40,286 bases of DNA from a virus. The notes under the pieces were generated by a model that saw only the letters and a program-made list of their open reading frames with translations, made no database searches and was not told the origin of the DNA. Shown in pieces: positions 1,557-31,315 of the stretch; the first letter of the stretch is position 1; each line of letters begins with the position of its first letter. The stretch is from positions 1-40,286 of IMG/VR virus record IMGVR_UViG_3300005095_000126, one strand, 5' to 3'. Both the position numbers and the translations under genes were made by a program.

Positions 1557-2774
1557 ATGCCGAAAAGTGCCCGCCTCGTCCCGGTTAAGAAGCTGGTAGC
1601 TCCTCCGGGAGTAAACCCCCACTTACGGACCTACTATGTGAACCCGGACAAGGATAAGCCCGGAGACAAGAAGGATGAGGCCACCGAAGTTAAGGACATA
1701 ACTTCCTTCCTCGGGCGGGCAGCAGATAAGCTGGAAAAGCTATCAAAGGAAAACTACCGTAGCTACGGCTTCGATAAGGCAAAGACGAAAGAGGAACTCA
1801 AGGACCTCGTCACCAATGCCATCGAAACTGAGGCCAAGCGGCAATACTACAAGCCTACGGACGTTTTCAAAGGCACCTACCTCCTGGCCGCGGGGGTGCT
1901 GGCCGGGGTAGATGCCAAAACGCTCAAGAAACTCACGACCAGATTCAAGACTTCCTTCTATGAGCGCGGGTTGGAAGCCTTTGGCATCTATCCGGAGGAC
2001 ACCACCACGAGCCACGGCCCTACTAAGATGTGGTATAACCTCCTCGGCTCCTATGCGACCCTTCGGCGAATGGGCTTCAATCGCAAACAGGCTTTAGAGG
2101 TCCACGGACGGCTCACTTTATCCCACGTTGCTCCGGATGGTGTTGATGTTGCGGGGTTCAATAAGGCCGCAACGAATGGTGAAGTGGCCCGAGGGATCTT
2201 GATTAACCATCTCGCCTACTCCAGGGCCCATAGGAAACTCGGTGTGCCCATCATTGCAGATCTCATGGCCGGCCACATGGAGGGCCTCTCACTCAATAAC
2301 GGCACTCCTTTCCAGAAGGCCCTTGGCCACCTCTACACTACGACTCAGTTGATCTTGAAGAAACTGGCTCCGAAGTTGAAGAAGAAGACCTTCTACCGCG
2401 GGATGGTGGTGCCGGCATTTGAAGGGAAGTTCAAGGTCAAGTCCGGGCGGACTCAATCGGTCAGTGACCAGTTTGAGGTCGGGATGTTTTTTGCCGGCGT
2501 GATGGCCGAAGACGTGGCCGAGAAGGGGTTTAGGCCGGCACATGAGCTGGTAGAGCTTCCCCGGGGCTATACGGATACGTTTGAGCAGATCGAGGTCTTC
2601 TACGACAAGCCCCGAGAGGGGATGCTCCTCCGTCTACGTGGATTGAAGGACACGCGGCGTATTATCTTTTCTATGACGGAGGAAACTATCCCCGTTTATG
2701 ATAAGGTCTATAACCTCACGAAAGCCGCCAAAAATATGGCCGAGGAGGAAACTGAGACTCTCTTCTTCGCTTAG
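1557..2774 (+). CDS. ADP-ribosyltransferase-like protein with shared N-terminal module
   Basis: The C-terminal third carries the pattern of arginine-directed ADP-ribosyltransferases: FYRG at residues 279-282, a serine motif SVS at 301-303, and a TEE segment at 374-376 in the place of the catalytic E-x-E. The first Glu of E-x-E is Thr here, so activity is uncertain. The N-terminus has LVP at 7-9 and LRTYYVNPDK at 23-32, matching at identical positions the 483-aa protein at 29864. The middle is helical and aligns loosely with the second transferase-like protein (10245-11357). By analogy with T4 Alt it may be packed in the virion and delivered to the host; this is inference. AGGAGG precedes the start. 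Confidence 0.6.
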   Translation: MPKSARLVPVKKLVAPPGVNPHLRTYYVNPDKDKPGDKKDEATEVKDITSFLGRAADKLEKLSKENYRSYGFDKAKTKEELKDLVTNAIETEAKRQYYKPTDVFKGTYLLAAGVLAGVDAKTLKKLTTRFKTSFYERGLEAFGIYPEDTTTSHGPTKMWYNLLGSYATLRRMGFNRKQALEVHGRLTLSHVAPDGVDVAGFNKAATNGEVARGILINHLAYSRAHRKLGVPIIADLMAGHMEGLSLNNGTPFQKALGHLYTTTQLILKKLAPKLKKKTFYRGMVVPAFEGKFKVKSGRTQSVSDQFEVGMFFAGVMAEDVAEKGFRPAHELVELPRGYTDTFEQIEVFYDKPREGMLLRLRGLKDTRRIIFSMTEETIPVYDKVYNLTKAAKNMAEEETETLFFA

Positions 2775-3250
2775 AGGTTTCTCCGGGCCCAGACGGCGAT
2801 GAGAAGGGCTTCGGCCCTGTTGTGATCTTTCTTCCTCTTGAAGAGATCTGCGTGGTTGGGGAAGAGCCTCTTGGCGACGTTGATAGAAGCCGCCTTGTCT
2901 CTCCCGTCTTCCTTCTTGATAAGACCCCTCTTCCACTTGGTGGGGGTCACCTTTTCATACCCAATACCCTCGGCAATGAGGGCCATTTCAATCATTCCAC
3001 ACCAGCGCCCGAAGGTGAAGGCAGACTTCCCGGAGTCCCGTGGCATGGAGTGGACGTGCTCAAGGGCGGCTATCTGGATGTCGTAGGCGTCTTTTTGCTC
3101 TTTGATCCAGTTGAGGATGTTGTGGGCGTCTCCGTCTACATCCGTGATTTGCACTTCGTTGTCTTCGGTGACGAGTGCAAGGGCTCCGTTCTTCCCGGGA
3201 TCCACTCCGATCCATGCTTTCTTCTTTACAGCAGTTCTCTTTTTTGGCAT
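2771..3250 (-). CDS. RuvC-like Holliday junction resolvase
   Basis: This 159-residue protein has the RNase H-like RuvC layout: strand one with GVDPG (Asp17), ALEHVHSMP with Glu64, and a C-terminal KDHNRAEALLIA helix supplying Asp142 and Glu147 (His143 nearby). Such enzymes cut four-way junctions before packaging or during recombination. The start at 3250 is chosen over an in-frame upstream ATG at 3334 because AGGAGGG lies directly before it and the upstream frame is occupied by the neighbour. It is the last gene of the leftward SbcD-SbcC cluster, overlaps the Cys-rich gene by 25 bases, and its TAA interlocks with the TAG of the convergent gene (TTAG at 2771-2774). Confidence 0.85.
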   Translation of the reverse strand: MPKKRTAVKKKAWIGVDPGKNGALALVTEDNEVQITDVDGDAHNILNWIKEQKDAYDIQIAALEHVHSMPRDSGKSAFTFGRWCGMIEMALIAEGIGYEKVTPTKWKRGLIKKEDGRDKAASINVAKRLFPNHADLFKRKKDHNRAEALLIAVWARRNL

Positions 3251-3510
3251 CCTTCCCTCCTGATTCTCTTTCCGAGTTCGGTTAGAACTTCCTCCGGCTC
3301 GCGGTTGCCGTGTTGTCTTATGGCCAGCACACACGAGTCATAGGTGGCAAGATCGAGACCGTCATCGCAGACGTAGTGGCATAGATGATTGGGCTTGAGC
3401 ATCATGCCGAACGGATGATTGTGGTCTACGGCTCGGAACTTACGACACTGATTGCACGGTAGTTGAAAAAGGATTGCACGCGGGTTACCCGTCCACGTTG
3501 TTTCTCCCAT
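3226..3510 (-). CDS. Small Cys/His-rich protein, possible zinc binder
   Basis: A 94-residue protein with Cys19-x2-Cys22 and, after a His-rich loop (DHNHP), Cys44 and Cys48, which may bind one zinc. The start at 3510 follows AAAGGAGGT; a further in-frame ATG at 3537 lacks a ribosome binding site. It overlaps the SbcC C-terminal half upstream (26 bases) and RuvC downstream (25 bases), placing it in the recombination operon. Phages encode many small zinc proteins of this kind, and I cannot assign a specific function. Confidence 0.7.
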   Translation of the reverse strand: MGETTWTGNPRAILFQLPCNQCRKFRAVDHNHPFGMMLKPNHLCHYVCDDGLDLATYDSCVLAIRQHGNREPEEVLTELGKRIRREGCQKRELL

Positions 3511-4126
3511 TTTTGGAACCTCCTTTCTTTTTGACATAGGATTGGTTTCCCTTGCGTTGCACCTCGAAGACGGCGTCGGCCTCTTCGATAAGGGCCGGTA
3601 GGTGGCTGATGATTATGAATTGCAGGCCTAGTTTCTCATGAAGCTCTCGCAGGAGCTTACTACAATACGGCTGGAGATCTGAGGAGACAAACTTGAACGG
3701 TTCATCAAGGAAAATTACCGGCCTACTGTCCCGTGACAGGCCCCAAAAGGTGGCTCTCAAGGCGAAGGAGATCAAATCGGCCACTCCACCACCGGCGCTT
3801 TCCAGGGGGTGCAGAGGATGACCGTCTTCGTAGAGCACAAGGTCAACGACCGGCCTCCCACGCTGGTGGAGGATCTGGGCCTCAAATGACAGTCTGGGGC
3901 CGAACACGGTTTGCAAGGCGAGGGTGGTCAGTTGGCCTACGGTGCCCGTCACGTCTTTGAGGACTGCATCGGCGACTTCCTGGATGATCTTGATGAGTTT
4001 GGTAACTTCTTCCTCTTCCCTGGCAAGCTCTTCGAGTTCAAACTCAAGTCGCTTCTTTTCCTTAGCCAAGTGTTCTTTCTTGGCCTTGATGTTGTTTAGG
4101 CGTTGGCGTAGTTCTTTAGTCCTCAT
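3485..4126 (-). CDS. SbcC/Rad50-like ATPase, C-terminal half
   Basis: This 213-aa protein starts with about 55 residues of charged coiled coil, then carries the second half of an SMC/Rad50-type ATPase: signature loop ESAGGG (109-114), Walker B VIFLDEP with Asp141-Glu142, and an H-loop His175 (IIISH). It has no Walker A, so it cannot form a nucleotide site alone. The matching N-terminal half is at 37862-39043 on the opposite strand. With SbcD (4366-5256) it should form an SbcCD/gp46-gp47-type complex processing DNA ends. The start overlaps the previous stop by 11 bases. Known family: Rad50/SbcC; the split arrangement is inferred from the motif distribution. Confidence 0.85.
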   Translation of the reverse strand: MRTKELRQRLNNIKAKKEHLAKEKKRLEFELEELAREEEEVTKLIKIIQEVADAVLKDVTGTVGQLTTLALQTVFGPRLSFEAQILHQRGRPVVDLVLYEDGHPLHPLESAGGGVADLISFALRATFWGLSRDSRPVIFLDEPFKFVSSDLQPYCSKLLRELHEKLGLQFIIISHLPALIEEADAVFEVQRKGNQSYVKKKGGSKNGRNNVDG

Positions 4127-4355: not shown

Positions 4356-4365
4356 GACTTCCTCC

Positions 4366-6375: not shown

Positions 6376-6391
6376 AAGTCACCTCCTTTGT

Positions 6392-6402
6392 AAAACATTA
6401 TA
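6392..6402 (-). promoter_or_regulatory. Probable -10 element and AAAACATT half-site, leftward promoter
   Basis: Read on the minus strand, TATAATGTTTT lies about 20 bases upstream of the start at 6375. TATAAT is a consensus -10; the -35 region is poor (TTGCAC at 15-bp spacing is the best fit). The same AATGTTTT string occurs in the divergent gaps near 1214 and 29824. Confidence 0.4.
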
Positions 6403-6426
6403 TGAAAACGCGTTGGAGTGCAAACA

Positions 6427-6947: not shown

Positions 6948-6967
6948 AGAAGGAGGAGGATGAAAAA

Positions 6968-7358: not shown

Positions 7359-8750
7359 ATGCAAGTAGTTGCGCACTCACCAACGGCGTATAGGTTGATT
7401 CACGACGGAGCCCTTGCCTTACATAGAGCCGAGCAAGTCGGGATGCGGATTGATACCGACTATGCGCGGACAAAACTCGAAGAGTTGAAGGAAAAGGTAA
7501 AGGAAGAGCAAAGGGCTTTAGAATCTAGCAAACTTGGTAAGGTCTGGAAGAAACTTTTCCCGGCCAACTTCAACCCGAACTCAGATGATCAATTGCGCAA
7601 GGTCATTTACGGTGAGCTCGGGTTGGAGCCTCCAAAGATTACGGAAAAAGGCACCCCGGCCACCGACGCCGAGGCCCTGCGCAAGCTGTCCAAACAATTA
7701 CCCGACGTGCATCATGTTCGAGAGATTAGGCGTTGGTCTAAGGCCCAGCAATACCTCAATAACTTTCTTGTCGAGCAAGTAGATGGCATTCTCCACCCTT
7801 TCTTCCACCTCCACACGGTAAGGACTTTTCGGTCTAGCTCGTCCAACGTCAACTTCCAAAATATCCCAAAACGTGATGCAGAAATAATGAAGTTGGTGCG
7901 GAGGGCCATTCTTCCACATCCCGGATGCCAACTTCTTGAGATCGACTACGGGTCTCAGGAAGTGCGAATTGCGTGCTGTTATACGAAGGATAAGGCCCTC
8001 ATCAATTACGTTCAGGACCCGTCGTCTGACATGCATCGTGATGCCGCCATTGACCTCTTTATGCTTCCTTCCTTGGACAAGGGTCACAAAGGCGAGAAGC
8101 TCCTCCGAAACGCCGCCAAAAATGGCTTCGTTTTTCCTCAGTTTTATGGTGACTACTGGAAGAACTGTGCTCGGTATCTTTGGGAAGACTGGGTAATGGA
8201 GCACAAGATCCACATAAGAAACCCTGACAACCCGAGCGAAGACATTTTCGTGCTCGACTGGCTAGCTAAGAAGGGCGTGGATTCTTATGAGGCCTTTGAA
8301 GAACATGTGATGAAAGTGGAGGAGCTCTTCTGGAAAGTCCGGTTCAAAGATTATGACCAATGGCGTCAGGCCCAGGTGGCCTTCTACGAGGAACATGGTT
8401 ACGTGGACATGTATACCGGCTTTCGCTGTAAGGGCATTATGGGCCGCACTAAGGTCATTAACTATCCCATCCAGGGATCGGCCTTTCACTGTTTATTACA
8501 GGCTTTCATTTGGATAGATCGAGTGTTTCAGCGTCTTCGTCTTGCAAGCAGACTTATTGGCCAAATTCACGATGCTATCATAATAAACGTTGTGCCCGAG
8601 GAGCTAGATGAGGTTTTGGCCATCTGTAAGGAATACATGATTGACCGCCTGATGGACAAATGGCGGTGGATAATAGTGCCTTTGGAGATCGAGGCGGATA
8701 TAACCGGCGTTGATGCGCCGTGGAGTGAGAAGGAAACTTTACCCGTGTAG
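7359..8750 (+). CDS. Family A DNA polymerase, polymerase domain only
   Basis: This 463-residue protein starts where the polymerase domain of Pol I starts (ALHRAEQVGMRID resembles the usual 'ME..G..vD' entry) and has no 3'-5' exonuclease region. Motif A is DYGSQEVR with Asp196; motif B is RNAAKNGFVFPQFYG with Arg250, Lys254 and Tyr263; motif C is IHDA with Asp405. Motif C is HDE in most family A enzymes, so Ala406 replaces a conserved acid. PIQGSA lies between B and C. An exonuclease may be encoded elsewhere, as in Rhodothermus phage RM378. It likely replicates the phage genome. No ribosome binding site is visible at the ATG. The patatin-like gene follows. Confidence 0.9.
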   Translation: MQVVAHSPTAYRLIHDGALALHRAEQVGMRIDTDYARTKLEELKEKVKEEQRALESSKLGKVWKKLFPANFNPNSDDQLRKVIYGELGLEPPKITEKGTPATDAEALRKLSKQLPDVHHVREIRRWSKAQQYLNNFLVEQVDGILHPFFHLHTVRTFRSSSSNVNFQNIPKRDAEIMKLVRRAILPHPGCQLLEIDYGSQEVRIACCYTKDKALINYVQDPSSDMHRDAAIDLFMLPSLDKGHKGEKLLRNAAKNGFVFPQFYGDYWKNCARYLWEDWVMEHKIHIRNPDNPSEDIFVLDWLAKKGVDSYEAFEEHVMKVEELFWKVRFKDYDQWRQAQVAFYEEHGYVDMYTGFRCKGIMGRTKVINYPIQGSAFHCLLQAFIWIDRVFQRLRLASRLIGQIHDAIIINVVPEELDEVLAICKEYMIDRLMDKWRWIIVPLEIEADITGVDAPWSEKETLPV

Positions 8751-8763
8751 GAGGTGCGTGACT

Positions 8764-9591
8764 ATGCGCGTATGTTTAGTTCTTTCCGGGTCTGGCGTTA
8801 ATTTCGATGCCCATATAGGAGCGATCAAGGCCCTGCACCATGCAGGGGTGGAGATCACCGAAATGGTGGCTGTTTCTGGTGGGTCCCTTGTGGCCGCGGC
8901 GTATGCTTTGTTGGGTGAAGAGTTTGAAGAGCCGTTTACTCCGGTGAGAATCTCCAGCCTATTTAAGAAGGCTCCGTGGTGGAAGGCCTTGTTTAAGGGT
9001 TACCTTTATGAGCGCAAGGGATTTGAAACCCTTGTGCGTAATTTGTTTGGAGATATGCGTTTAGCCGACTTGAATATTCCACTTACCGTGCTTGCTTCTA
9101 ATCTGGAAACCGGTGACCCAGTGGTATTCAGTTCTGTTGAAGAGTATCACAACGCTCCATCAGATCGTATTTATGATGCGTTGTTGGCGTCTACTGCTGC
9201 TCCGCTGGTGCTTCCACCTCATCTAGGTCTCTATGATGGGGGGATTATCAATAATATTCCGATTGATTGGGTTCATGACTACAAAGGGGTGCCGGAGGAC
9301 GTGCATATCATTGGCGTAAGAGTCGTGCCACCGCGTCCTAGACCGTCTATCAAGGACGGTTCGTTGATGCGGATGGTTTCTATTTCAAAGGCAGTTTTAG
9401 ATACAATGTTGACCGCCCTCGACCGTGAACATGTAGAGGAACATGTGGATGACGTGTGTTTTGTTCCCGTTGATACCTCGTCCTTTGATTTTGGAATCAA
9501 TTTCAGTGAGAGGACGCGGAATAGAGTTTCTGGATATGAAAGAATGAAGAACTTTTTGGAAAAGAAGTTTTTTGAGATCTTGAATGGATAG
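8764..9591 (+). CDS. Patatin-like phospholipase
   Basis: A 275-residue patatin-family hydrolase with a glycine-rich oxyanion segment (SGSGVNFDAHIG, residues 8-19), a nucleophile elbow AVSGG with Ser38 (the first Gly of G-x-S-x-G is Ala), and a DGG motif with Asp158 completing the Ser-Asp dyad. Family members remove acyl chains from membrane lipids. No signal peptide, so it would act in the cytoplasm or on the inner membrane face, or be carried in the virion. Start 8764 follows AGGAGGT; an in-frame upstream ATG overlaps the polymerase. Roles in lysis, membrane remodelling or host conflict are all possible. Confidence 0.82.
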   Translation: MRVCLVLSGSGVNFDAHIGAIKALHHAGVEITEMVAVSGGSLVAAAYALLGEEFEEPFTPVRISSLFKKAPWWKALFKGYLYERKGFETLVRNLFGDMRLADLNIPLTVLASNLETGDPVVFSSVEEYHNAPSDRIYDALLASTAAPLVLPPHLGLYDGGIINNIPIDWVHDYKGVPEDVHIIGVRVVPPRPRPSIKDGSLMRMVSISKAVLDTMLTALDREHVEEHVDDVCFVPVDTSSFDFGINFSERTRNRVSGYERMKNFLEKKFFEILNG

Positions 9592-9881: not shown

Positions 9882-9910
9882 GGAAGGGGGGCTATTCTTC
9901 GCCCCCTTCC
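9882..9910. terminator. Hairpin at convergent gene ends
   Basis: GGAAGGGGG/CCCCCTTCC, a 9-bp stem with an 11-base loop, between the stops at 9877 (plus) and 9892 (minus); its right arm lies inside the leftward gene. It lacks a T-run on either strand, so it may stabilise 3' ends or be a weak terminator. Confidence 0.45.
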
Positions 9911-10077
9911 TTGACCAGGGTGATCAAATCAATCAAGGCCCTTCTAGCGTCTTCCACGTCCTCGTGCTTAACCACCACTTCCGCAGCAATCTCTAATATT
10001 TGCGCCGGCTGCTCTGCCGCATTTATTTGACGGGCAATTTCGGCTAATTCTTGGATTGGCAAGGTCTTTTTAGGCAT
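9892..10077 (-). CDS. Small helical protein, tandem paralogue of upstream gene
   Basis: This 61-aa helical protein aligns along its length with the 74-aa protein encoded directly upstream: both have an L-x2-[IL]-A-x2-I-x-A start, then IL-x-[IL], then V-E/D and a final LI-x3-x-E-E pattern. GAGGAGGAA precedes the start, which is inside the last codons of the neighbour. The pair lies downstream of an ADP-ribosyltransferase-like gene. Function not recognised; a small dimeric partner, inhibitor or tail chaperone are candidates. Confidence 0.65.
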   Translation of the reverse strand: MPKKTLPIQELAEIARQINAAEQPAQILEIAAEVVVKHEDVEDARRALIDLITLVKEGGEE

Positions 10078-10294
10078 TCTTTTCTTCCTCCTCTAACATT
10101 ACGATCAGTCTGGCAATATCTTTGTGGACTTCGACGGCCCCGTGGTCGTCGGCAATGGACTGGACGAGTTTTAGAATGGTGGTCTTGTCATTAGTTGCTT
10201 TGATCCTGCCGGCCAGTTTGACCAGTTTGCTCGATGGCAAGAGTTTAGAGGAAGGTGACAACTTCTTTTTCGTGCTCAAACCACGAGTGCTCAT
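10070..10294 (-). CDS. Small helical protein, tandem paralogue of downstream gene
   Basis: A 74-aa protein with a basic, serine-rich N-terminal tail (TKKKLSPSSKLLPSSK) followed by a helical domain matching the 61-aa protein downstream. CGGAGGA lies seven bases before the ATG, so the start is well supported even though it is 50 bases inside the transferase-like gene in another frame. The tail is absent from the paralogue. Tandem duplication followed by divergence is the simplest explanation. Confidence 0.65.
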   Translation of the reverse strand: MSTRGLSTKKKLSPSSKLLPSSKLVKLAGRIKATNDKTTILKLVQSIADDHGAVEVHKDIARLIVMLEEEEKNA

Positions 10295-11357
10295 CTTTTC
10301 GTCCTCCGAGCTTTTTTATTGTTTTATCTAAACCCTTGCCATGTAAGACTGCAACTATCTGCCGCTCTGTTTTGGGTTTGAGTTCAAAAAGGATACTCAA
10401 CTCCTCCGGATCTCCCATTATGGGATCTTCGGGGATGTATTTGACTTCCTCTTTGACCTCGGCGTAGGGGCCGTTTTTGTGCTTGATCGGACGCTTTGCG
10501 TGGCGAGGGATTTTTGAGAGGGCATCGTTGGCCCGGGCAAATTTCTTCGCGATCCAGTCATCAACCGTGGTAGAGAACAGTTTCCCCCAATTGATGTCGA
10601 TGGTTTCTTGCATCCCCAGCACGACGGTCATACCGCGGTAGAGCTTCTCGAAGTTGCCGTTTTCTTCACGCACGTCCGGATCTTTGATGACCTCCTGGGT
10701 GGTCTTATAGATGCGCTCGGCAACATCCGCGAGGGGGTGCTGGTGCTTTTCCTTTCCGAGTTTTGTGGCCAGGGCATTTGTAAGGCCTTCGCGGGTGAGG
10801 GTGAAGGTGTCGGAACTCCCGGAGACCCAGTTGTTTAGGGTCTTTATTGCGTATTCGTCTGGATCGTCGATTTTAAAGTCAAGGTCCTTCATTATCTTGT
10901 TTGCACGTTCTCGGCCCACGAGCTTTATGAGGTTGTGGTAGATTCCGAACCCCCAACGAGGGTCTTCGGCCACCACTGCCCTGATATTCTCTTCCAGGGC
11001 GTATTTTTGCTCCCCTTTTGCCAGCAAGTAGGCAGCAGCTACCGGGAAGATGTCGTAGCTGCTCATTGCGGTGCGTAGGGAATAATGGTTGTCGAAAACC
11101 CTGCTGGCCTCATGGATGAAGGCCTCCACACCGTCTCTCTTCAACTCGTGGTAGCCGTTGAAGTTCTTTTCCCCGTTTATCTCCTCCAGGATGCTTGCAA
11201 GCTTTTCCCCATCTTTGGGAGCTTCTTTTTGGGGATTCACCCAATACCCTTGCTGGTGTGGTGGCACGAAGGCAACATCGCCGGTCTTAGTTGTGCGGAT
11301 ATAACCGCTCCGCGTCTTTGGCTGAAGGATCTTGAGTTTGAGTTTCAGTTTCGGCAT
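10245..11357 (-). CDS. ADP-ribosyltransferase-like protein, second copy
   Basis: A 370-residue protein with a full R-S-E ADP-ribosyltransferase pattern: LYRG (Arg241), FSTTVDDWIAKKFA (Ser262-Thr-Thr, followed by the usual alanine/phenylalanine helix) and a C-terminal EKEVV with Glu363-x-Glu365. The helical region before it aligns with the 405-aa protein at 1557 (IYKTTQEVIK against LYTTTQLILK). The N-terminus has YWVNPQK at 38-44, a weak version of the shared module. It lies five bases after the tape-measure gene, suggesting late co-expression and possible virion association. Known relatives modify host proteins such as RNA polymerase (T4 Alt, ModA); the target here is unknown. Confidence 0.68.
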   Translation of the reverse strand: MPKLKLKLKILQPKTRSGYIRTTKTGDVAFVPPHQQGYWVNPQKEAPKDGEKLASILEEINGEKNFNGYHELKRDGVEAFIHEASRVFDNHYSLRTAMSSYDIFPVAAAYLLAKGEQKYALEENIRAVVAEDPRWGFGIYHNLIKLVGRERANKIMKDLDFKIDDPDEYAIKTLNNWVSGSSDTFTLTREGLTNALATKLGKEKHQHPLADVAERIYKTTQEVIKDPDVREENGNFEKLYRGMTVVLGMQETIDINWGKLFSTTVDDWIAKKFARANDALSKIPRHAKRPIKHKNGPYAEVKEEVKYIPEDPIMGDPEELSILFELKPKTERQIVAVLHGKGLDKTIKKLGGRKDEHSWFEHEKEVVTFL

Positions 11358-11362: not shown

Positions 11363-14300
11363 TTACCTTGCGTAGACGTTTACGACTCCTGCGTTGATGA
11401 TGCCGGCGTCCTCCCTCCGTTCGGTGGGCCTTGGAGCCGCCGCGGGCGTGACCATCTCCGGAGGCTTGATTCTTCCAATGGCCTCTATGGACTCGGGGGC
11501 CTTCATACCCTCCAGCGCCCGGAGCACGTATTGCCTGGAAAGGTTTGGCAAGGCCCCGAGCTGAATCAGGCGTCCCACTGCCGGCTCAAGGGCCTGCATC
11601 GGGTCTTCCACCTTACCAGCTTCTTCGGTGACGATGCGCTGGAGGAGTTGCTCCGCGGCGCTTAGGGGCATGTCCTGCGCATAAGCGATGTTTGCCGCCG
11701 TGCGCGATTGCAGGGCAATGTCCGTAATTCCCGGCCCGGACATGCTGATGTTGGTAAAGGCCAGATTTTCGCCCTGTCTTTGGATGCGGTAGAAGGGCTC
11801 GTCATACGGGATTTCCTTCGTCGGCACGGCTCCCAGGGCGTAACCCATCCAGCCGAGAGGAGTGTCTGGCAGAGGCAGTTCCGTGCTCGGGCTTCGGGGA
11901 CGTTCTTTAGCCTCCCGGAAAAGTTGTTTGGCGATGCTCTCGTCGTAGAAGGTCTGAGGTATCTCCGGGGGCTGGAAAGCTCCCTCTACGAGAGCCGTCT
12001 GTTCGGCCAGTTCCCTCTTGGACATTTGAAGGCCCGTAATGGTAGCTGCCCTCTCGATCCGCTCAACGGCGAGGGGCCCCTGGTCGGCATAACGGCCCTT
12101 CACTCCCATGATGTAGCTCGTGAAGAGGTCCATGGTCGGCTCTTCTTCGAGCTGAGAAGCCCTCTCTTTAAAGTTCTGGAGGGCCGCTTTGTATTGCCGC
12201 TTAAATGTCTCCGCCATGCGCGTCATCATTACGTCAAACGGAGACTGCGTTTCCGTCTCCGCGGCAGCGGCCTCGGCGACTGCTTTGGTTGTTGGGGCCT
12301 TACTGGCCTTGAGGGCTTGGTTGATGGTCTGCATTTCTTCTTCGGGGATCTCTCCCGCATAGACTTCACTGGGGGAGAGGACACTTTGAAGCATCTTTAA
12401 TCCAGAAGCCCCTCCACGTTTCAGTGCATCCCACAATGCTCCGCCAACCGTCTTGGCGTCCTGGGACATTGCGCGGAGATTTTCCTTGATTGGGCTCTCT
12501 CCACTTGTGGTTTGGGGCGTTGGTTTCGTTTCTTGAGGGGCAGGTGTTGTTTTTGGTGCCGCCTGTTGGGCAAGTTGCTCCAGTGATTGGGCGGCCTTTG
12601 TGGCGGCTTGGCCAAGCTGACTCACGCTACTTGCCGCGGCCTGCGCAGGCTGTGCCAGCAGCATGCCGGCGGTTTGTTCACCTTTGGTCATTTCTTCCGT
12701 AATTTTGCTGAACCAGGAGATGGCCGGTTCACGGAAGTATTCTGCGGGCTTTTCCCCGGCAAGGATCAAGCCCATGCTGGCCCATTTGAACAGTTCAGGC
12801 CGTCGCATCCATTCTCCGAAGTCGATGGCTCCCATCTTGGTGAGTCGGGCCATCCGCAGAGAGGTGGATTTCCAAAGATCGAGGCTTTCATCTATGCCGA
12901 AGACGCCGAACATTGGCAGGGTCTTGAACGCCGTTTGACTGGCCCCCAAGGCGGTGAATCCTGTCGCGGTCAGTTGCTGGACGAATGTTGGAATTCGTTC
13001 TTGTAGTTCCGCCGTGCGCGTCCAGTCTTGGATCATTGAGGTGGGAATCTGTTCGATGCGATATTTGCCGTAGATGGCCTCTTCCATGGCCTTGCCTACC
13101 ACCAGGCTGAGCGCTCCGGCAGTATAGGTTTGGGTCAGCTCTTCGCGCTGGGCCGTTACGGCCTGGGCTTGGGTAACAAGGCGGCCTTCTAGGATTTGCG
13201 TAAGTTTCTCAATCGTAGACTCGTCGGCCTTCGGTAGAAGGTTTGTGAGGCCCTTTTTGAGTTCGAGTTCGGCTTCTGCTTTCAGCTTTACGGGTTTGCC
13301 TTCTTCAAAGACGAAGGCCTCCTGCGGCTGTTGCAAGAATTTCATGGTGGTGGGCAGAAGCGTCCGGGACAAATTTTCACTCAGAGCCCTAAACGCTTGC
13401 TCATTGCCACGGGTTTGCTCGCGCATAATGGGCTGGAGAGCTTCTAGCACATTCTGAGCACCCTGCACCGGAGCCGTTGTTGCTGCAATTGCCTGTTGTT
13501 GGAAGCGTTGTGCGTAGTCTTCACCAAGACGCTCTTCAACGCTGTATTGGCGCATGAACACGGCTACGCGTTGCTGTGCGCTGATGAGTGCGTCCTGAAT
13601 TGCCCGCGCAATTGGATCACCAAGGACATTTTCCTGTGCGGCCTGAGTAGTTTCTGCTGCTTGCCTTGCTCCAAAGTATCCCAGACCCACACCCAGTGCA
13701 GAAACTGCAAACCCCGCGCCTTGCACAATTGGGTGCGGGACGAACATCATTCCACCACCCACGATTTGTGCCATGCTACCCCAGCGTTGGAGTGCGTTGA
13801 GTTCTGGTTGGGCAAGAGTATAGGCCCCGTGGGCAATGAACCCCATACCGCCAATGGCGGCTCCGTAACGCATGAGACGTTGCATTGCGTTTCCTTGCTG
13901 TTGGGAGAAACGATCCAGGGCCTCGATGATTCTGGACCCAATTGCGCCTAAAATCGTTGGTGATGCAATAATACTGGCACCGGCCACGGCCTCTGTGAGA
14001 GTGGTAGAAAACGGCTGATTTTCGGCCTGGCTAAACGCATGTTGGAGGAGACCAAACCCAGTAAAGGCCGCAGCGGCCCTGGGCAGGTTCTGTCGTCCAT
14101 ACCTAATCACCGACCACCACCCGGCCAGTCCGGCCATCTGGGTAAGGGCCTCGGTGGAAGAAATATCTCCCATTCCGGTTGCGAAGATATTTGCAATCGG
14201 GCCACCGATGAGGGCCCCAGGCATGGCGATGGCCGTGCGTGCTACACCGGTCATCATGCCCTGGGCGACCGGGCCGAAAGAGGCCATGACGATCTTTTCG

Positions 14301-23549: not shown

Positions 23550-23772
23550 GGAACTGCAAGAGTGCATAGATACACTCTTGCGAAACAGGCTGACCACCTA
23601 TAAAGGTGGGAACGAAGGTGACATTTTGACAGCATTTTGCAAGGCGGTGGAAGGTGTCCCGAACGTTCATGTTGAGCGAGTGCCGTCAAAAATCGTATCA
23701 ATCTATTATGCGATATGCGATGGGGAATGCGAACTAGAAACCGAAGTGCCGGAGTTCGAGAGAACCCGCTAA
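23530..23772 (+). CDS. Small hypothetical protein, 80 aa
   Basis: AAGGAGGAAAAAAG precedes the ATG at 23530, which lies 20 bases inside the preceding gene. The protein has a helical N-terminus and a beta-like C-terminus with CDGECELETEVPEF. No known family is recognised. It overlaps the beginning of the helicase reading frame. Confidence 0.6.
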   Translation: MRRVTSRELQECIDTLLRNRLTTYKGGNEGDILTAFCKAVEGVPNVHVERVPSKIVSIYYAICDGECELETEVPEFERTR

Positions 23773-26567
23773 TACCACTGCCACTTGCGTTGGGGATCAC
23801 CCTCCAGGCGGCTGAAAATGGAGAACGGCTGAGTCCGGCGGTCAAGGCTGCCGTGAAATACTACTGGACCCACGGCAAGCTGCCGCCCAAGTATGCCTCT
23901 GTTGTGCAGCGGGCTGCTGATAAACTGGCCGTCAAGTATCCCCACGCCGAGCAGGTTCCGGTGACGGCCACCAAGTTTGCAAAGCCCTTAAACGGGGTTT
24001 TGTTAGAACTTCGGTTTCCACCAAATAAGCGCCTCTCAAAAGAGATCGCTGCCATTCCGGGAGCTTCCTACGATAGGTCTACCAAGAAGTGGGTGGTTCC
24101 CCTTCGTGCCGATACAATCGACATCCTTGAGGACCTTGGGTTCGTTGTCCCACCGTATGCTCGGGATTTGGCTGAGCGTGGTAGGGATTATCCCAAAGTC
24201 CATCCTGCGCAGGTTGGCCTTCCCAAGTGGTATCTGCGAAAGCTCCTCCCATACCAGCGTCTGGGTGTTGCCTTTATGGAGTCGCGCGGGGGGCGTGTTT
24301 TGCTCAATGACGAGATGGGCCTGGGTAAGGCTCAACCGATTTGGATAAGCCAGGTCCTCACCCCAAATGGCTGGAAATATCTGGCCGATCTGACTCCTTA
24401 TGAGTTGATTTATAGCCGTGAGGGAAAGCCGGAGCGGGTTCTGGGCATCTTTCCCCAGGGCGAGAAGATGGTCTATCGCCTCCGGTTTGAAGATGGCGCT
24501 TATACCTACTGCTGCAATGACCACTTGTGGGTGGTTACGGTCGATGGCGGCCCTGAGCAGGTCGTTCCTTTCACGCAAGTGCGGGAGTGGTTTGAAGCCG
24601 GGCGGACGGTCTCCGTGCCCACGCCTGCTCCTATTCAGCACATGGCGGCTTTTAGGGAGGAGGGCCCCGACCCGTTCCTGGTTGGAATCTTAATCAGCCG
24701 CGGTGTGCGTGATAAGGACGCCCTGCGCATCACCGTCCTGGACTCGGAGGTAGGGGCTTACGTGCGCCGCGCCGCCGAGCCCTTCTGCCACGTTGACGTG
24801 ACTCTCGGCCCGTATGGGTGGGTGCTCACACTTCGTCCGAAGAAGCGACACAAGCTCACTTATGACTACCTTGAGTTCTGTGCCAAGAACAGGCGCATTC
24901 CGACCTTTGCCTATACCGGGAGCGTTGCCGAGCGGGAGTTGTTGCTCAAGGGCCTTGTCGGCACGACTGGAGACCTGCAAGAGTTCACCGTTGAGGTCCA
25001 TGAGGAAGGTCTACGCGTAGACATCATTGAACTCGCGCGGTCGTTAGGAATGTTGGCCAAAGAGACCGAAGAGGGTGTTAGGGCACGGAGGTCTCCCACA
25101 CGACGATTGGTCGGGATTGATGAGGTCGGAATGGAGCCGTGTGCCTGTATTTCCGTCTCCGGAGCCTCGAAGACTTATGTCACTGATGATTACGTAGTGA
25201 CACACAACACCGTGCAGGCACTGGCTTGGTGTGAAGCCCATCCCGAGAAGAGGCCAGTGCTCGTAATTTCCCCGGCCTCCGCAAAATACAATTGGGTGGA
25301 GGAGATCAAGAAGTGGTCTTTGAGAGAGCCGGGGATCTATGTGGTCGACGGGCGATTTTCCCGGGGCCGGACCCTGGAGGAGTGCTTCGTTGATGGAGAT
25401 GAGGAATCAGAAAATATTTATGTGGTAATCAATTACGACATTCTCGGCTCCCGGAAGGAAAAACGGAAGACCAAAGGGAATAAGGAGCGCACCGTAGTCA
25501 ACCCGGGATGGGTGGACGAGCTTCTTCTCTACGACTTCAAGGTGCTCATAGTCGATGAGTGCCACCGCGTAAAGAACATGAAGGCCCAGCGGTCCAAGGC
25601 TGTGTATTCTCTGGGACGCAAAGCCCCTCACGTCATAGCCATGTCCGGCACCCCCATCCAGAATGGTCCCCATGAGTTCTATCCAATCTTGAAGCTGGTA
25701 GACCCCACCATCGTCCCCAGCTACGATGAGTTTCTCATTAGGTATTGTGGGGCCAAAAAGACTCCCTGGGGGTTGAAGCCCGGGAAGCCGACCAACATTG
25801 AGGAGCTGCACAACCTCCTCACCTCTACGGTCATGTTGCGCCGGCGTAAGGCCGACGTGCTCAAAGACCTGCCCGAGAAGATCCGGACAGCGATTCCATT
25901 CAGGCTGGAAAACATGAAGGCTTACATTGAAGGCGTGAAGGCCTTCGCCGAGTGGGCCCGGTCTATGGGTATCGAGAGTGAGGCCGACATCAATGCCGTG
26001 GTCTTGGCGCAATTGGCTAAGTTGCGGAGTCTCGTTGCGGAGTTGAAGATGCCACAAGTGATAGACTGGATTGAGACCTTTCTCGAATCCGACCAGAAGC
26101 TCGTGGTATTCGGCCACCATCAAAAGGTGCTTGAAGCGATTCACAACCGCTTCAAGAAAGAGTCCGTGCTCCTTTACGGGAAGGTGCGCTCGGCCAAGGA
26201 ACGGCAACGTATTCGCGACCGGTTTCAGGAAGATCCAAATATCCGTCTGTTTGTAGGGAATTTTCACGCCGCCGGGGAGGCCATTACACTTACGGCGGCC
26301 TCACACGTCTGTTTTGTTGAGCTCGATTGGGTGCCCGGGGTCCTTCAGCAGGCCGAGGACAGATGCCACCGAATTGGTCAAAGATTTCCCGTCAACATCT
26401 GGTATCTGCTCGCCAAAGATACGGTAGACGACCTCCTTGCGGAGAAGGTCATCTTTAAGCACGGGGTTGTGTCGCAGGTATTGGATGGGAAAGAAGAGCA
26501 GTGGTTCGACCGCACTGCCCTTCTTTCCGTGGTGGAAGGCCTCTTACAGCAGGCTGCCAGGTATTAA
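23715..26567 (+). CDS. SNF2-family helicase interrupted by an intein
   Basis: The spliced host protein (about 657 aa) is a SMARCAL1/HepA-type SNF2 ATPase. A short HARP-like segment (ASYDRSTKKWVVPL, about 116-129) is followed by motif I DEMGLGKT, motif II VDECHRVKN, motif III MSGTPIQN, and motif VI QQAEDRCHRIGQ. Such enzymes remodel or anneal forked DNA. A 293-residue intein interrupts motif I between Lys and Thr, so the ATPase should be inactive until splicing. The start is uncertain: ATGs at 23715 and 23727 overlap the previous gene and have no clear ribosome binding site, and a TTG further in is possible. The stop shares TTAA with the convergent portal stop. Confidence 0.9.
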   Translation: MRWGMRTRNRSAGVRENPLIPLPLALGITLQAAENGERLSPAVKAAVKYYWTHGKLPPKYASVVQRAADKLAVKYPHAEQVPVTATKFAKPLNGVLLELRFPPNKRLSKEIAAIPGASYDRSTKKWVVPLRADTIDILEDLGFVVPPYARDLAERGRDYPKVHPAQVGLPKWYLRKLLPYQRLGVAFMESRGGRVLLNDEMGLGKAQPIWISQVLTPNGWKYLADLTPYELIYSREGKPERVLGIFPQGEKMVYRLRFEDGAYTYCCNDHLWVVTVDGGPEQVVPFTQVREWFEAGRTVSVPTPAPIQHMAAFREEGPDPFLVGILISRGVRDKDALRITVLDSEVGAYVRRAAEPFCHVDVTLGPYGWVLTLRPKKRHKLTYDYLEFCAKNRRIPTFAYTGSVAERELLLKGLVGTTGDLQEFTVEVHEEGLRVDIIELARSLGMLAKETEEGVRARRSPTRRLVGIDEVGMEPCACISVSGASKTYVTDDYVVTHNTVQALAWCEAHPEKRPVLVISPASAKYNWVEEIKKWSLREPGIYVVDGRFSRGRTLEECFVDGDEESENIYVVINYDILGSRKEKRKTKGNKERTVVNPGWVDELLLYDFKVLIVDECHRVKNMKAQRSKAVYSLGRKAPHVIAMSGTPIQNGPHEFYPILKLVDPTIVPSYDEFLIRYCGAKKTPWGLKPGKPTNIEELHNLLTSTVMLRRRKADVLKDLPEKIRTAIPFRLENMKAYIEGVKAFAEWARSMGIESEADINAVVLAQLAKLRSLVAELKMPQVIDWIETFLESDQKLVVFGHHQKVLEAIHNRFKKESVLLYGKVRSAKERQRIRDRFQEDPNIRLFVGNFHAAGEAITLTAASHVCFVELDWVPGVLQQAEDRCHRIGQRFPVNIWYLLAKDTVDDLLAEKVIFKHGVVSQVLDGKEEQWFDRTALLSVVEGLLQQAARY
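24330..25208 (+). other. Intein in SNF2 helicase (Ala1 type), dead homing endonuclease
   Basis: The intein runs 293 residues from Ala1 (AQPIWISQVLTPNGW) to His-Asn (YVVTHN), with Thr as the first extein residue. Block B is seen as CCNDHLW. Ala1 inteins splice without the first N-S shift. Two LAGLIDADG-like helices are recognisable at intein residues 116-125 (FLVGILISRG) and 205-215 (LLKGLVGTTGD), but the catalytic acids expected near their ends are Ser-Arg and Thr-Thr, so nuclease activity is probably lost. Splicing residues look intact. Confidence 0.88.
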
Positions 26568-28369
26568 GCCTCTTCTCCCTTTTTGAGCTCCAGGTAGCGG
26601 AGCAACAGTTCCGTCACCTTTATGCTTTCATTTGCCCGGCTTTCGCGGAAGAGATTGCTGAACAGTTCTTCCTTCCCGGGCTCCACCGCCGAAGTGGGGA
26701 AGATTTCAATTTTGCTTTCCGCTTCGTCTTCCTCCGGTTCTTGGGCGGTTTCTTCCTGACCAAACTCCCGCGTCTCCCCACCCTCCTCCATGTCGGCAAA
26801 GAGGGTGTCTATGGGGCTGGACTGAGCTTCGGGAACCTCTTCGGTGAAGAGCGAGGGGGCCTCCTCACCCTGCATGAGGCTCTTTTGTTTCTTTTGCTCG
26901 AACTCGATCATCTTGATGAGGCGTTCAACCTCGAACTGGGAGAGATCCTTGAAGACATATTCGACCACCCAGGCAGTCGGCGGAGCGATACCGAGCGCTG
27001 CGACCATCTGATTCACAATCATCATACGGCGGACGATGGTTTCGACTACGCGCGTCTCCGCATTGGGGTCAGGATTGGGGAACTGGATGGAGACAACGAC
27101 GTTGGAATAGCCCCATTTCTTTAAGACTTCAGTATAGAGGTCCTCCAGGGCATAGGCGATGTGTTTTTGATAGATCCGCACCAGTCTAAAGAACGCCTTC
27201 TCAACGTATTGCTCCTTGCCGGTCTTTTCCGTGCCGAAGATGTGGGAAGTGAGCAGGTTGGTGAGGATTCGGTTCACGTAGAATTTGAGGTCGTCAAGCT
27301 TTGTGGCGCTGGGGTCGGAAGGGATGGTTTGCACCCGCGTGGCAGAGTCTTTCACGATCGGAATGACCAGGTCTGCCCCGGTTTTGATAACGGACCTTTG
27401 CGAAATCTCTTCCCCGCGGTCAATTCGCATCCGGAAGATGGACTTGAGGCGGCGGGTGAAGTTCTTCACCATTTCAGTGATTTCTTTTTTCTCCTTCCCG
27501 GTCACGTCTAGGAAGAAGATGATGAACCGCCGGGCTCTGGTCACGCGGTGGATCAATAGGGCCTGCTCAAACAGCCGCATGAACCTCCAAACTACCACCA
27601 GAGATGTTAAGGGGTTGTGTTTGATGCCTACGACGTTTCCGGCGTTTAGGTGCAGGATTTCATCCGGCTGGAACTCGATGACCTTCTTTTCTGAGAGCCA
27701 GCGGCTGAGGTTCGTGGGTTTATAGAGTCCCGAGGGCGAAATATTTTCGTCTATAATTTGATAGTAGGCTTCCGGACGCCCGTCCCGCCCGTATTTGATT
27801 TCTATGGTCTCGGAAGGGAGGTAGTTGAACTTCACAATGTTTCCCTGGTCGTCTCGCACCTTTTCGAGGAACCCATCCTCGAACTTGATTACGTCCAGGA
27901 TGGCCGGCCAAAGCTGCCGGCGTATCTTCGTAGCCCGTTCCCAGCGTTTTAGTTTCTTTTCGGCTGCGCGGACTTCGTTCGTGTCCGGGCCGGATAGGAC
28001 TACTTTGTAGTCGTCCAGGTTCACTTCTGAGGCCCCGAAGTTCACATAGCTGGCGTAAATCTTCACGGAGTTGTGCGCTTCGGGGGTTTCGGAAATGAAC
28101 TGCTGGAGGTCTGAACAGATGTCTACGCGGTAGGTGGGTAAGGCATATAGCTCTGCTTCGAGAGTAGACATGAATTCGTTGACGAATTCATCATAAGACA
28201 GTTCGCGTTTCTCTTGCACCTTTGTTGACAACTGAGTGTGAATCTTCTCCGCAACTTTTGCAGCATTTTCCTCATTTAATCCCATCTGAGTCAATTCAGA
28301 TACGAGAGCGTCAGTGTCAAGTTTAACTATCGTTTCGTCTTTTTTGCGAAAGAAATCAAGGAGTCCCAT
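26564..28369 (-). CDS. Portal protein
   Basis: A 601-aa protein with portal features of the T4 gp20 type: an N-terminal wing region, an Arg-rich crossing segment (RARRFIIFFLDVTG, then KNFTRRLKS), a clip/stem region and the segment DDLKFYVNRILTNLLTSHIFG resembling the 've.y.kklY.aLnVP' stretch of portals. A long acidic Glu-rich C-terminal tail (about 500-570) follows. Portals form the dodecameric DNA gate at one head vertex and bind terminase. GGAGATAT lies upstream, and its start is two bases past the stop of the 353-aa gene. Its stop overlaps the helicase stop in TTAA. Capsid and terminase genes are outside the window. Confidence 0.8.
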   Translation of the reverse strand: MGLLDFFRKKDETIVKLDTDALVSELTQMGLNEENAAKVAEKIHTQLSTKVQEKRELSYDEFVNEFMSTLEAELYALPTYRVDICSDLQQFISETPEAHNSVKIYASYVNFGASEVNLDDYKVVLSGPDTNEVRAAEKKLKRWERATKIRRQLWPAILDVIKFEDGFLEKVRDDQGNIVKFNYLPSETIEIKYGRDGRPEAYYQIIDENISPSGLYKPTNLSRWLSEKKVIEFQPDEILHLNAGNVVGIKHNPLTSLVVVWRFMRLFEQALLIHRVTRARRFIIFFLDVTGKEKKEITEMVKNFTRRLKSIFRMRIDRGEEISQRSVIKTGADLVIPIVKDSATRVQTIPSDPSATKLDDLKFYVNRILTNLLTSHIFGTEKTGKEQYVEKAFFRLVRIYQKHIAYALEDLYTEVLKKWGYSNVVVSIQFPNPDPNAETRVVETIVRRMMIVNQMVAALGIAPPTAWVVEYVFKDLSQFEVERLIKMIEFEQKKQKSLMQGEEAPSLFTEEVPEAQSSPIDTLFADMEEGGETREFGQEETAQEPEEDEAESKIEIFPTSAVEPGKEELFSNLFRESRANESIKVTELLLRYLELKKGEEA

Positions 28370-28371
28370 CG

Positions 28372-29433
28372 CTATATCTCCATAAAGATGTTTTCTTGCT
28401 GATGCATTGCTGGTAAATCATGAGGCAGCAGTCCACGCTTTATGTCACTGTTTATTGAGCAGTGACGGAAAGTTGTTGACAATATTCTGTCACTTATTGA
28501 CTTGTCACCACAGTCGAATCTCAACTCTTTGACACCATCTAGCAGCACTTCCATTACACGACTCATTATGACGTTCCGTGCCCAACTACCGATATAGCCA
28601 TTTTTGACGCATTTAAGTATGGCGTCACCATAATCTTTAGCGCTTTCTAGGCTGATTGTCAGCCTGGAAAGTTTTGGAATGTTGATTGGTTCCTGCGCAG
28701 TGACTGAAAGCATCTTCTTGATTAGGACATCCTTCTTTTTCTCGAAGTCATCAGCTACCGGCACGAATCCACATCTGAGGGCTAAAGATGATTCATAATT
28801 TGAACGCACTGGTAAGTAAATTGCGCGAAACTTTTGGCGGATATTGACGATAAAGAACATAAATTCGAGGAAGGCGTAGTTTACTATCCTCGTAATTGTA
28901 ATTTCTTTGTCTCCTCGGCATTCACAAGTAATCTTCCGCACCACCGTGTTGCCATCAACGACGGTGGATACGTAGGTAAAGCGGGGCTTCTTTGCGTATT
29001 TGCGGAAGATGATGGTCGAAGTGATTTGCCTTTCTCCGGAGAGGGTGACGGTCTCAGTGGTCCCCTCTTGTTTGTCTTCCACAACGGCAACACTGCTTCC
29101 GTATTGGAATAGGTTCTCATAGTCGTAGAGAGCCCCGGAGATTCGGGCGTGCTTGAGGCCCCATGACTGGCCGAAGCATTGGTAGTCGTCAGGGACTCGC
29201 AGGCCCGTCATGGCCTGCGCGGCGAGGATCATGCCTTCAAGGAGTGCACCGGCCCCCTGGCCATACTGGGCTGCCTTTTCCGGGGTGACGTAAAAGGTGC
29301 GGTAGCAGGTGCCGCCCCCTTTGCACTTCGTAAGTATGCGGACCGGCACTACTTCCCGCTGAACTGTGGGGGACGGCCCGCGGGAAACATACCTGCTTTC
29401 TGCAATTCTGCGGAACTTAACTTTTTTCTTCAT
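28372..29433 (-). CDS. Hypothetical protein with shared N-terminal module, possible GNAT-like fold
   Basis: A 353-residue protein whose residues 29-53 contain VP-x14-RTFYVTPEK with exactly the same spacing as in the proteins at 1557 and 29864, preceded by a basic leader of 20 or more residues. Residues about 185-235 (IRQKFRAIYLPVRSNY, SSLALRCGF) faintly recall the N-x2-S-x2-L-Y-x-K-x-GF end of GNAT acetyltransferases; this is weak. It is upstream of and nearly contiguous with the portal gene, so it is probably expressed late and may be a virion protein. Its second half is AT-richer than the first. Confidence 0.65.
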   Translation of the reverse strand: MKKKVKFRRIAESRYVSRGPSPTVQREVVPVRILTKCKGGGTCYRTFYVTPEKAAQYGQGAGALLEGMILAAQAMTGLRVPDDYQCFGQSWGLKHARISGALYDYENLFQYGSSVAVVEDKQEGTTETVTLSGERQITSTIIFRKYAKKPRFTYVSTVVDGNTVVRKITCECRGDKEITITRIVNYAFLEFMFFIVNIRQKFRAIYLPVRSNYESSLALRCGFVPVADDFEKKKDVLIKKMLSVTAQEPINIPKLSRLTISLESAKDYGDAILKCVKNGYIGSWARNVIMSRVMEVLLDGVKELRFDCGDKSISDRILSTTFRHCSINSDIKRGLLPHDLPAMHQQENIFMEI

Positions 29434-29803
29434 CTTCGGTTACCGTGTCCTCCGGGAAGAACACACGTGGTTCTTCGCAGTAGTAAGGGCTCTCCTTGAA
29501 GAAAAGAATCTCCCCAAGGGTCCTGCCGATGGGATCTACCTGTTCAACAAAGATTTCGTCGAGTTCGGCTGCTTCCGGGCCAAGTTTTTTGATCGCCTCA
29601 TAGGCCTTGACGGTTCCGGTGCGTTCTAAGAAGGCCCTAAACCACTCCCGCTTGTGGTAGCGTGGGATGATGTAAGAGGTATCTTCGTCGACTTGTGTGC
29701 ATAGGAATAATAGGCCCTCGTGGTCCGGAAATTTGTAGTAGTAACGGAAGGCCCCGACGAAGGAGGTGAACTTTACCTTGTAAGGGTCGAACAGTTCTTT
29801 CAT
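29417..29803 (-). CDS. Hypothetical protein, 128 aa
   Basis: The start at 29803 follows GGAGGG; a longer in-frame ATG at 29881 would extend into the divergent gene and is rejected. It is an acidic protein with an aromatic-rich N-terminal part (GAFRYYYKFPD) and a Glu/Asp-rich tail (TEDEEKS). It overlaps the 353-aa gene by 17 bases and is the first gene of the leftward portal unit. Function unknown. Confidence 0.65.
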   Translation of the reverse strand: MKELFDPYKVKFTSFVGAFRYYYKFPDHEGLLFLCTQVDEDTSYIIPRYHKREWFRAFLERTGTVKAYEAIKKLGPEAAELDEIFVEQVDPIGRTLGEILFFKESPYYCEEPRVFFPEDTVTEDEEKS

Positions 29804-29823
29804 TGCAACCCTCCAGCTTATTA

Positions 29824-29846
29824 AAATGTTTTTGCAGAAAACATTT
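29824..29846. promoter_or_regulatory. Inverted repeat between divergent genes
   Basis: AAATGTTTT and AAAACATTT, perfect 9-bp arms with a 5-base centre, in the 60-base gap between the leftward start at 29803 and the rightward start at 29864. It shares the AAAACAT half-site with the gaps at 1214 and 6392. Possible operator or paired promoter elements. Confidence 0.45.
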
Positions 29847-29863
29847 ACAAAGCGAGGTGTCGT

Positions 29864-31315
29864 ATGCCGATAAGACCGCATCTAGTTCCTCTGCTCAAAG
29901 GAGCCTTAGACCCCCGGCGCGGTATTATCCTGCGCACTTATTACGTCCGCCCGGACAAGCTCGCCGAGATGATCGAACGTGCCCGCACGGTTCCCATCAA
30001 AAGCTACGTTGCTGATATTCCGAACTACTCGGCCCTCTCGAAGGCCGTCAAAATAGACGACATTTCAGGCCTGCGGGACCTATTTCCTAAGAAGTCGGCA
30101 GCTTGGGGATACGTCAAAGACAGGGCGAAGATGAAAACCCCGGCCCAGCAGCGGGGCCGTCTTAGCCAAACCCTCTATGCCCTCGCCCTCCGTCCAGACA
30201 CCATCGTCGTTCAGGCCGGACGGAAGTTCCTCCGCGGGGCTTCGACTAAATACGATGTCGTAGTGATTGAGTCGACCAAACCTACCAAGGACGGCGGGGC
30301 CATGAAGGTAAAATATACCCCCGTCCTTCAACAGACTCCGCATCCAGAGCAGCACGGATTGGAGCTTTCGCGCATTCTGGCTCTAATCAACATGCGTCCG
30401 CGGAAGCTGACGGACGTGATTCTTTCCCTTGTTACAAAAGAGACCTTCAAGGACAAGACCTCTTTGCTTCCCAATCTGCTCTTGTCCATTCACACGTTTA
30501 TGGCTAGTCCGGTGGTGTGGACGGAGGTCTTATCTACCTGGATTACCTACTGGGCGACTGATGAGAAGTTTCGGCTAAGTAACCACGCCCTCTTGCAGCA
30601 TCTTGCCGCCCTGCGCACGATTAACAGACGTAGATTCGATGCCATTTTGGATACCTACGAGATCCCTCCGACTATAAGTCACGCATTGAAATTGGCCGAG
30701 ACCGGGTTTGAGGCTGTTATTGAGTCACGCAAGCTCGATGAGATACAAAAGGCCATTCTCTTGAATATGACCACCCCGGAGAAGCAAGTGCCGGTCCTCT
30801 ACGCCTACGTGCAGGGCCACCCGGAACTTAGCCTCTCAATCAAGGCCGCCGTGGCGAACCTCGTCCTTACCGACAAAGCGGCTAAATTATTTGAAGCCTA
30901 CTTTCAAAACGCCGAGGTTTTGGACGAGTTCATTGCTTGGTGCCGCGATGGGGCCCCGCCCACCTGCGCCATGCTCATGGCGGAGATGAAGGCGGCCAAA
31001 CACCAAAACTGGCATTTCATTCCTTACTCTCTTGCCCAGCATGTTCCGGGCCACCCCTTAATTTGCCAGGCCCCTACGCGGTTTCTTAAAATCCTCCCCC
31101 TGCCGAAATTTGACCTGTCGAAGTTCACTAAGAAGACCGTCCACGTGCATTTGGATGTGCCGGAGCTGGACACCACGCCGTTTGTGCATTTTCAGCCCGT
31201 CATGGCCTTCAAGAAGGAGGAAAACGGCTTGGAGCTCAAGGATGCAAAGGTGATGAAGGAAGAGGGGGATTGTGTCGTCGTCCTCCACCCTATTTTGGCG
31301 ATTGCGAAGAAATAA
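29864..31315 (+). CDS. Helical protein with shared N-terminal module, 483 aa
   Basis: The first 32 residues match the transferase-like protein at 1557 at 15 of 32 positions, including MP, LVP at 7-9 and LRTYYVxPDK at 23-32. The remainder is different: a long helical region (about 165-370) that looks like stacked helices, then a beta-like C-terminal part (KTVHVHLDVPELD). No catalytic motif is seen. The shared N-terminus on an unrelated body is the main clue, suggesting a common destination such as the capsid interior. GAGGTG precedes the ATG. Confidence 0.72.
   Translation: MPIRPHLVPLLKGALDPRRGIILRTYYVRPDKLAEMIERARTVPIKSYVADIPNYSALSKAVKIDDISGLRDLFPKKSAAWGYVKDRAKMKTPAQQRGRLSQTLYALALRPDTIVVQAGRKFLRGASTKYDVVVIESTKPTKDGGAMKVKYTPVLQQTPHPEQHGLELSRILALINMRPRKLTDVILSLVTKETFKDKTSLLPNLLLSIHTFMASPVVWTEVLSTWITYWATDEKFRLSNHALLQHLAALRTINRRRFDAILDTYEIPPTISHALKLAETGFEAVIESRKLDEIQKAILLNMTTPEKQVPVLYAYVQGHPELSLSIKAAVANLVLTDKAAKLFEAYFQNAEVLDEFIAWCRDGAPPTCAMLMAEMKAAKHQNWHFIPYSLAQHVPGHPLICQAPTRFLKILPLPKFDLSKFTKKTVHVHLDVPELDTTPFVHFQPVMAFKKEENGLELKDAKVMKEEGDCVVVLHPILAIAKK

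Follow-up and report, generated by a model that had tools for sequence, protein, structure and literature searches.

Why should several proteins of one phage, otherwise dissimilar, begin with the same short segment? The question is raised by a window (here, the whole stretch of DNA that was analysed) of 40,286 nt, the IMG/VR virus record IMGVR_UViG_3300005095_000126 from an uncultured phage, in which three proteins contain VP, 14 further residues and then RT[YF]YVxP[DE]K near their N-termini, and a fourth contains part of this module. The best explanation, to which we would give an even chance of being right, is that the module acts as a new N-terminal tag for sorting into the virion. It would be an analogue of capsid-targeting sequences, from which it differs in sequence and predicted structure. 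The proteins are named P0001 to P0004, and they and their modules are located as follows.

1557 to 2774, + strand: P0001, tagged protein of 405 amino acids (aa), diverged, whose motifs YRGM and C-terminal ETE resemble those of ADP-ribosyltransferases
1578 to 1652, + strand: module in P0001, residues 8-32, VPVKKLVAPPGVNPHLRTYYVNPDK, with predicted strands at residues 8-14 and 22-28
29864 to 31315, + strand: P0002, tagged protein of 483 aa, body without recognisable relative
29885 to 29959, + strand: module in P0002, residues 8-32, VPLLKGALDPRRGIILRTYYVRPDK
28372 to 29433, - strand: P0003, tagged protein of 353 aa, body unknown
29275 to 29349, - strand: module in P0003, residues 29-53, VPVRILTKCKGGGTCYRTFYVTPEK
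10245 to 11357, - strand: P0004, protein of 370 aa, whose motifs YRGM, STT...A..F, and C-terminal EHEKEVVTF resemble those of ADP-ribosyltransferases
11226 to 11300, - strand: partial module in P0004, residues 20-44, IRTTKTGDVAFVPPHQQGYWVNPQK

Translation of these genes places VP at residues 8-9 and RTYYVNPDK at 24-32 of P0001, VP at 8-9 and RTYYVRPDK at 24-32 of P0002, and VP at 29-30 and RTFYVTPEK at 45-53 of P0003, the third copy being displaced by 21 residues with the 14-residue spacing unchanged. These are the positions given in the initial annotation, which had omitted the minus strand of P0003 and had counted 15 identities among the first 32 residues of P0001 and P0002, where the BLAST alignment gives 16. 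In P0003, the module sits behind a basic 28-residue extension, and a GTG at codon 29 represents an alternative start. The YWVNPQK reported for P0004 is present at residues 38-44, though the match to the module is only partial, as RT is missing and VP, at 31-32, stands just a few residues ahead of GYWV; this protein aligns with the N-terminus of P0001 over 31 residues, 12 of them identical (E = 3e-4).

The module is real and goes beyond chance. Single-pair BLAST E-values are modest (3e-4, 0.002, and 0.025). In a leave-one-out test, a profile made from any two of the modules was slid along the 1,031,328 25-mers of 8,287 open reading frames (ORFs) from the window and related phages, and the left-out third module scored 82, 88, and 104, the best scores among the other positions being 45, 46, and 50. 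When only N-terminal 70-mers were compared, three linked pairs appeared in the window (E = 5.8e-5, 2.1e-4, and 2e-3). In 15 records of relative phages, each near-complete or large, no short group like this one, spread over three unrelated proteins, was seen; the N-terminal matches there were mostly duplicated genes, ORFs split at fragment edges, or single weak pairs. Moreover, codons differ at 10 of the 13 identical residues between the modules of P0001 and P0002 and at 7 of 11 between those of P0001 and P0003, and at only 4 of 9 between those of P0002 and P0003. Since identical residues often differ in codon, the peptide is constrained at the protein level and does not derive from a recent duplication of DNA. 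The tag is basic, with a net charge of +5 to +11.

Compared without the module, the bodies score at the level of shuffled sequences and show no similarity in five pairs out of six, and for these the earlier claim of unrelated bodies holds. The remaining pair, P0001 and P0004 (z = 3.3, reached by 1 of 300 shuffles), are probably diverged paralogs that come from one gene and, thus, the independent bodies carrying the module are three, not four. No family is supported for any of the four proteins by searches of Pfam, PHROGs, NCBIfam, and PDB, which were empty or at chance level, and no homologs of P0001 or P0004 were found in annotated phages. ADP-ribosyltransferases (ARTs) of the R-S-E class present an Arg in strand 1, an STS-like motif, and an ExE motif near the C-terminus, in this order. 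Read by eye, P0004 contains YRGM, STT...A..F, and the C-terminal EHEKEVVTF in the R-S-E order, and P0001 keeps YRGM and ETETLFF, its STS motif being degenerate, with none clear. The two ART-like bodies of the initial annotation are therefore visible as motifs, and the same four libraries returned no ART family for them, by profile or by structure; on these motifs, it is plausible that P0001 and P0004 are ADP-ribosyltransferases. A whole-protein fold of P0004 with P0001 reached a predicted local distance difference test (pLDDT) value of 34 and was unusable. A GNAT-like nature of P0003, considered from a GF motif seen by eye, was dropped because no profile supported it. Several small helical ORFs accompany the ART-like proteins: one at 1210-1554 (+ strand) ends 2 bp before P0001, and two, alike by eye, are located downstream of P0004 at 9892-10077 and 10070-10294 (- strand); they might assist these proteins as partners or chaperones.

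AlphaFold2, run on the four aligned N-termini, predicts a beta-hairpin, with strands at residues 8-14 and 22-28, followed by a flexible linker, the pLDDT being 78 for residues 11-20, 77 for residues 21-30, and below 50 from residue 36. The fixed spacing between VP and RTYYV would be due to the fixed length of such a hairpin, formed by two strands and a turn, and the turn sequences APPGVNP, DPRRG, and CKGGG are compatible with it. With the hairpin as query, Foldseek gave no match with an E-value under 0.5, which is not surprising given how small the motif is. With low to moderate confidence, the model presents the module as a free-standing hairpin plus linker and, to that degree, argues against a module that is an integral part of one common fold, the case that the initial annotation had opposed to a tag. 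Furthermore, a [LIAS]-x-E tripeptide ends 3-14 residues past the module in all four linkers (product of background frequencies 0.0005, calculated post hoc), and these sites resemble the prohead-protease sites of T4, phiKZ, and SPN3US. The candidate sites are ATE-44, LAE-35, LLE-66, and ILE-58, the first of which, in P0001, is located as follows.

1653 to 1688, + strand: linker that follows the module in P0001, with ATE-44 as a weak, post hoc candidate for a prohead-protease site

Of the four genes, two abut a portal or a tape-measure-like gene.

26564 to 28369, - strand: portal protein of the T4 gp20 family, 601 aa (Pfam Portal_T4, PHROG portal, tblastn to T4-like portals, and alignment)
11363 to 16966, - strand: Ala/Gln-rich protein of 1867 aa, tape-measure-like by size and composition, with no family match

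The portal protein matches Pfam Portal_T4 with E = 5e-16 and 58.8 bits (curated cut-off 22.9), and the P0003 gene, which lies on the same strand, ends 2 bp upstream of the portal gene. The P0004 gene starts 5 bp downstream of the gene for the 1867-aa protein, which we infer to be tape-measure-like.

In T4, a common capsid-targeting sequence (CTS) is established for the internal proteins I-III (PMC3012670) and comprises 10-20 residues (PMC3012670, PMC5694885). As a positive control for the N-terminal test, these three proteins gave 1.6e-6, 0.008, and 0.026, to be compared with the window values given above. The T4 CTS (internal proteins I-III and Alt) and the module are alike in being short N-terminal segments common to unrelated bodies that produce an N-terminal-only signal in the same test; in addition, the T4 cargo Alt is an ADP-ribosyltransferase and the portal of the window belongs to the T4 gp20 family. 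However, the T4 CTS (MKTYQEFIAE...) has 10-20 residues, whereas the module has about 25 and is predicted to form a beta-hairpin, and no similarity is seen by eye when the sequences are placed side by side. Judged by sequence, the module is outside the T4 CTS family, and it would work like a CTS if the proposed role holds.

In phage P1, DarB is packaged via its N-terminal 30 residues, darB is the ORF beside the portal gene, and no common sequence has been found among the Dar proteins (PMC9024508). DarB thus resembles the proteins of the window in its N-terminal signal, in a gene that adjoins the portal gene, and in its large effector cargo, whereas the Dar proteins differ from them in lacking a common sequence, which in the window is found in three or four proteins. 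In SPN3US, the first 15 residues of gp53 and gp54 are identical and the prohead protease cleaves both proteins behind a short motif whose last residue is E; that this N-terminus directs them into the head is an inference of the authors of that study (PMC5694885). Here, N-terminal identity is also kept while the remainder diverges, but gp53 and gp54 are clear paralogs with 34% identity overall, whereas the bodies in the window are mostly unrelated. About 44% of phage ARTs are found in contexts suggesting head packaging (PMC9503650), and polyvalent and MuF-fused ART effectors are, like those of the window, ART-like effectors encoded beside virion genes, and are predicted to be injected (PMC5512222, PMC9503650); unlike them, the window proteins have no MuF domain, large multidomain protein, or family match.

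The targeting tag proposed in the initial annotation is favoured in part, by a module that is N-terminal, constrained, and carried by non-homologous bodies, by two genes that abut portal or tape-measure-like genes, and by the similar behaviour of the T4 CTS; the collections searched did not, however, show the expected presence of the tag on diverse bodies in further phages. Of the readings considered, a targeting tag is the best supported, loading into the capsid being its most likely form. A short basic beta-hairpin with a flexible linker could serve as a sorting tag on otherwise unrelated proteins and dock on one common partner while the particle assembles; the most likely partner is a component of the prohead that is associated with the portal or the core. 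The docked proteins would then be packed into the virion and would reach the cell together with the DNA. Among them would be at least one, and probably two, ART-like effectors, and a prohead protease may cut within the linker and so remove the tag.

As for recurrence, a PolA profile search retrieved about 295 viral relatives (IMG/VR contigs, many of 60-80 kb), a large group of uncultured phages with the same replication module, up to 47% identical, which comprises a compact 460-aa PolA, a clamp loader, a single-stranded DNA-binding protein (SSB), RecA, and SMC/SbcD and is accompanied by highly varied structural regions. The structural genes of these relatives are unrelated to those of the window and no tag was found in them. 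Single-sequence searches with P0001, the portal protein, and P0005 in IMG/VR or annotated phages gave nothing or only very distant portals, and a portal-profile search kept 80 distant portals, the nearest about 20-28% identical, with no tag nearby. By these comparisons, the phage of the window is a mosaic, and the data searched contain nothing closely related to it in the structural genes. The exact RT[YF]YVxP[DE]K motif has 3 matches in IMG/VR, only one of them inside an ORF (96 aa), and 24 in 85,000 prokaryote genomes, where the readable matches are mostly inside Ku-like and glycoside-hydrolase-like proteins. VP-x14-RT[YF]YVxP was not found in IMG/VR, the P0004-type pattern had 5 matches there, none with the module, and short-query tblastn with the modules gave chance matches only; in none of the viral or genome matches does the motif stand as an N-terminal tag on a protein that could plausibly belong to a virion. 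The motif scans require exact residues and may omit records near the window, and they indicate that the tag is not common, without implying that it is unique. As a side observation, Ku-like proteins contain (F)VPxxxVDPxYFxRTYYVGPDKGG, a wording close to that of the phage module; the resemblance was taken as coincidence, as Pfam gave no match for P0001 to P0004 even at E up to 10.

The module could also be a docking tag for a target other than the capsid, such as the lumen of the tail or the chamber of the tape measure, a phage complex for replication or transcription inside the cell, or a protein of the host. This is somewhat unlikely. In its favour, P0004 adjoins the tape-measure-like gene, neither P0001 nor P0002 lies beside head genes, the tag is basic, and nothing in the sequence names its partner; however, P0003 is directly coupled to the portal gene, and the documented short common N-terminal tags of phages (T4, SPN3US), together with the P1 DarB signal, target the head. 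Also unlikely is a remnant of a common ancestor, whereby all four proteins would be paralogs of one effector family, with bodies diverged beyond recognition and the hairpin as an integral element. Against this stand the five body pairs at shuffle level, the differing lengths and compositions of the bodies, and a module that is the sole conserved part, precedes a disordered linker in the model, and is displaced behind an extension in P0003, although P0001 and P0004 do resemble full-length paralogs and the poor body-level model leaves room for a hidden common fold in P0002 and P0003.

A short convergent similarity without function is very improbable. Ku proteins too contain RTYYVGPDK, and the exact motif also occurs by chance or in unrelated Ku-like and glycoside-hydrolase-like proteins; nevertheless, one 40-kb genome holds three N-terminal copies with identical spacing and similar flanks, the leave-one-out scores are far above background, and Pfam, Ku included, matches none of P0001 to P0004. 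Several points weigh against a virion-sorting tag itself. The hairpin model was built on four sequences only, and the [LIAS]-x-E motif class and its search window were picked after inspection, making these sites a lead and not a result. Moreover, the genes of P0001 and P0002 are not beside recognised virion genes, no prohead protease, scaffold, or major capsid gene is visible in the 40-kb fragment, and the module was found in no other phage record or genome searched, where no close structural-gene relative was found either.

The remainder of the window is mostly devoted to replication, with PolA, RecA, a gp32-like SSB, a clamp loader, an SNF2 helicase, ribonucleotide reductase, and SbcD-/SMC-like genes. 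The large subunit of ribonucleotide reductase (32979-36029, + strand) contains an intein at residues about 310-519, and the SNF2-type helicase (23715-26567, + strand) has a homing-endonuclease segment inserted at residues 395-453, so that two genes of one phage apparently carry inteins. A 161-aa protein (31340-31825, + strand) contains the cysteine cluster CX3CX2C (CNHICLKC) and is weakly similar to radical SAM enzymes of the QueE-like type; it is shorter than its QueE-like relatives (208-244 aa), and no frameshifted remainder was found nearby. A patatin-like phospholipase (8710-9591, + strand; Pfam E = 6e-23), unusual for a phage and without the tag at its N-terminus, could be related to lysis or be another effector.

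It is possible, though rather doubtful, that the beta-hairpin is a propeptide and represents a virion-sorting signal of a new type, by which several effectors unrelated to one another, ADP-ribosyltransferases among them, would be loaded into the particle. The uncultured phage lineage concerned would have a T4-type portal together with a widespread PolA/clamp-loader/RecA replication module, and the signal could, like the T4 CTS, be joined to reporters as foreign cargo. If the tag does sort proteins into the particle, it would provide a sequence handle for unknown phage proteins that are injected at the start of infection, which are otherwise learned only from virion proteomics, and the hairpin would add a second sequence type to the N-terminal tags that direct the packaging of several proteins of one phage, for which T4 is at present the main source.

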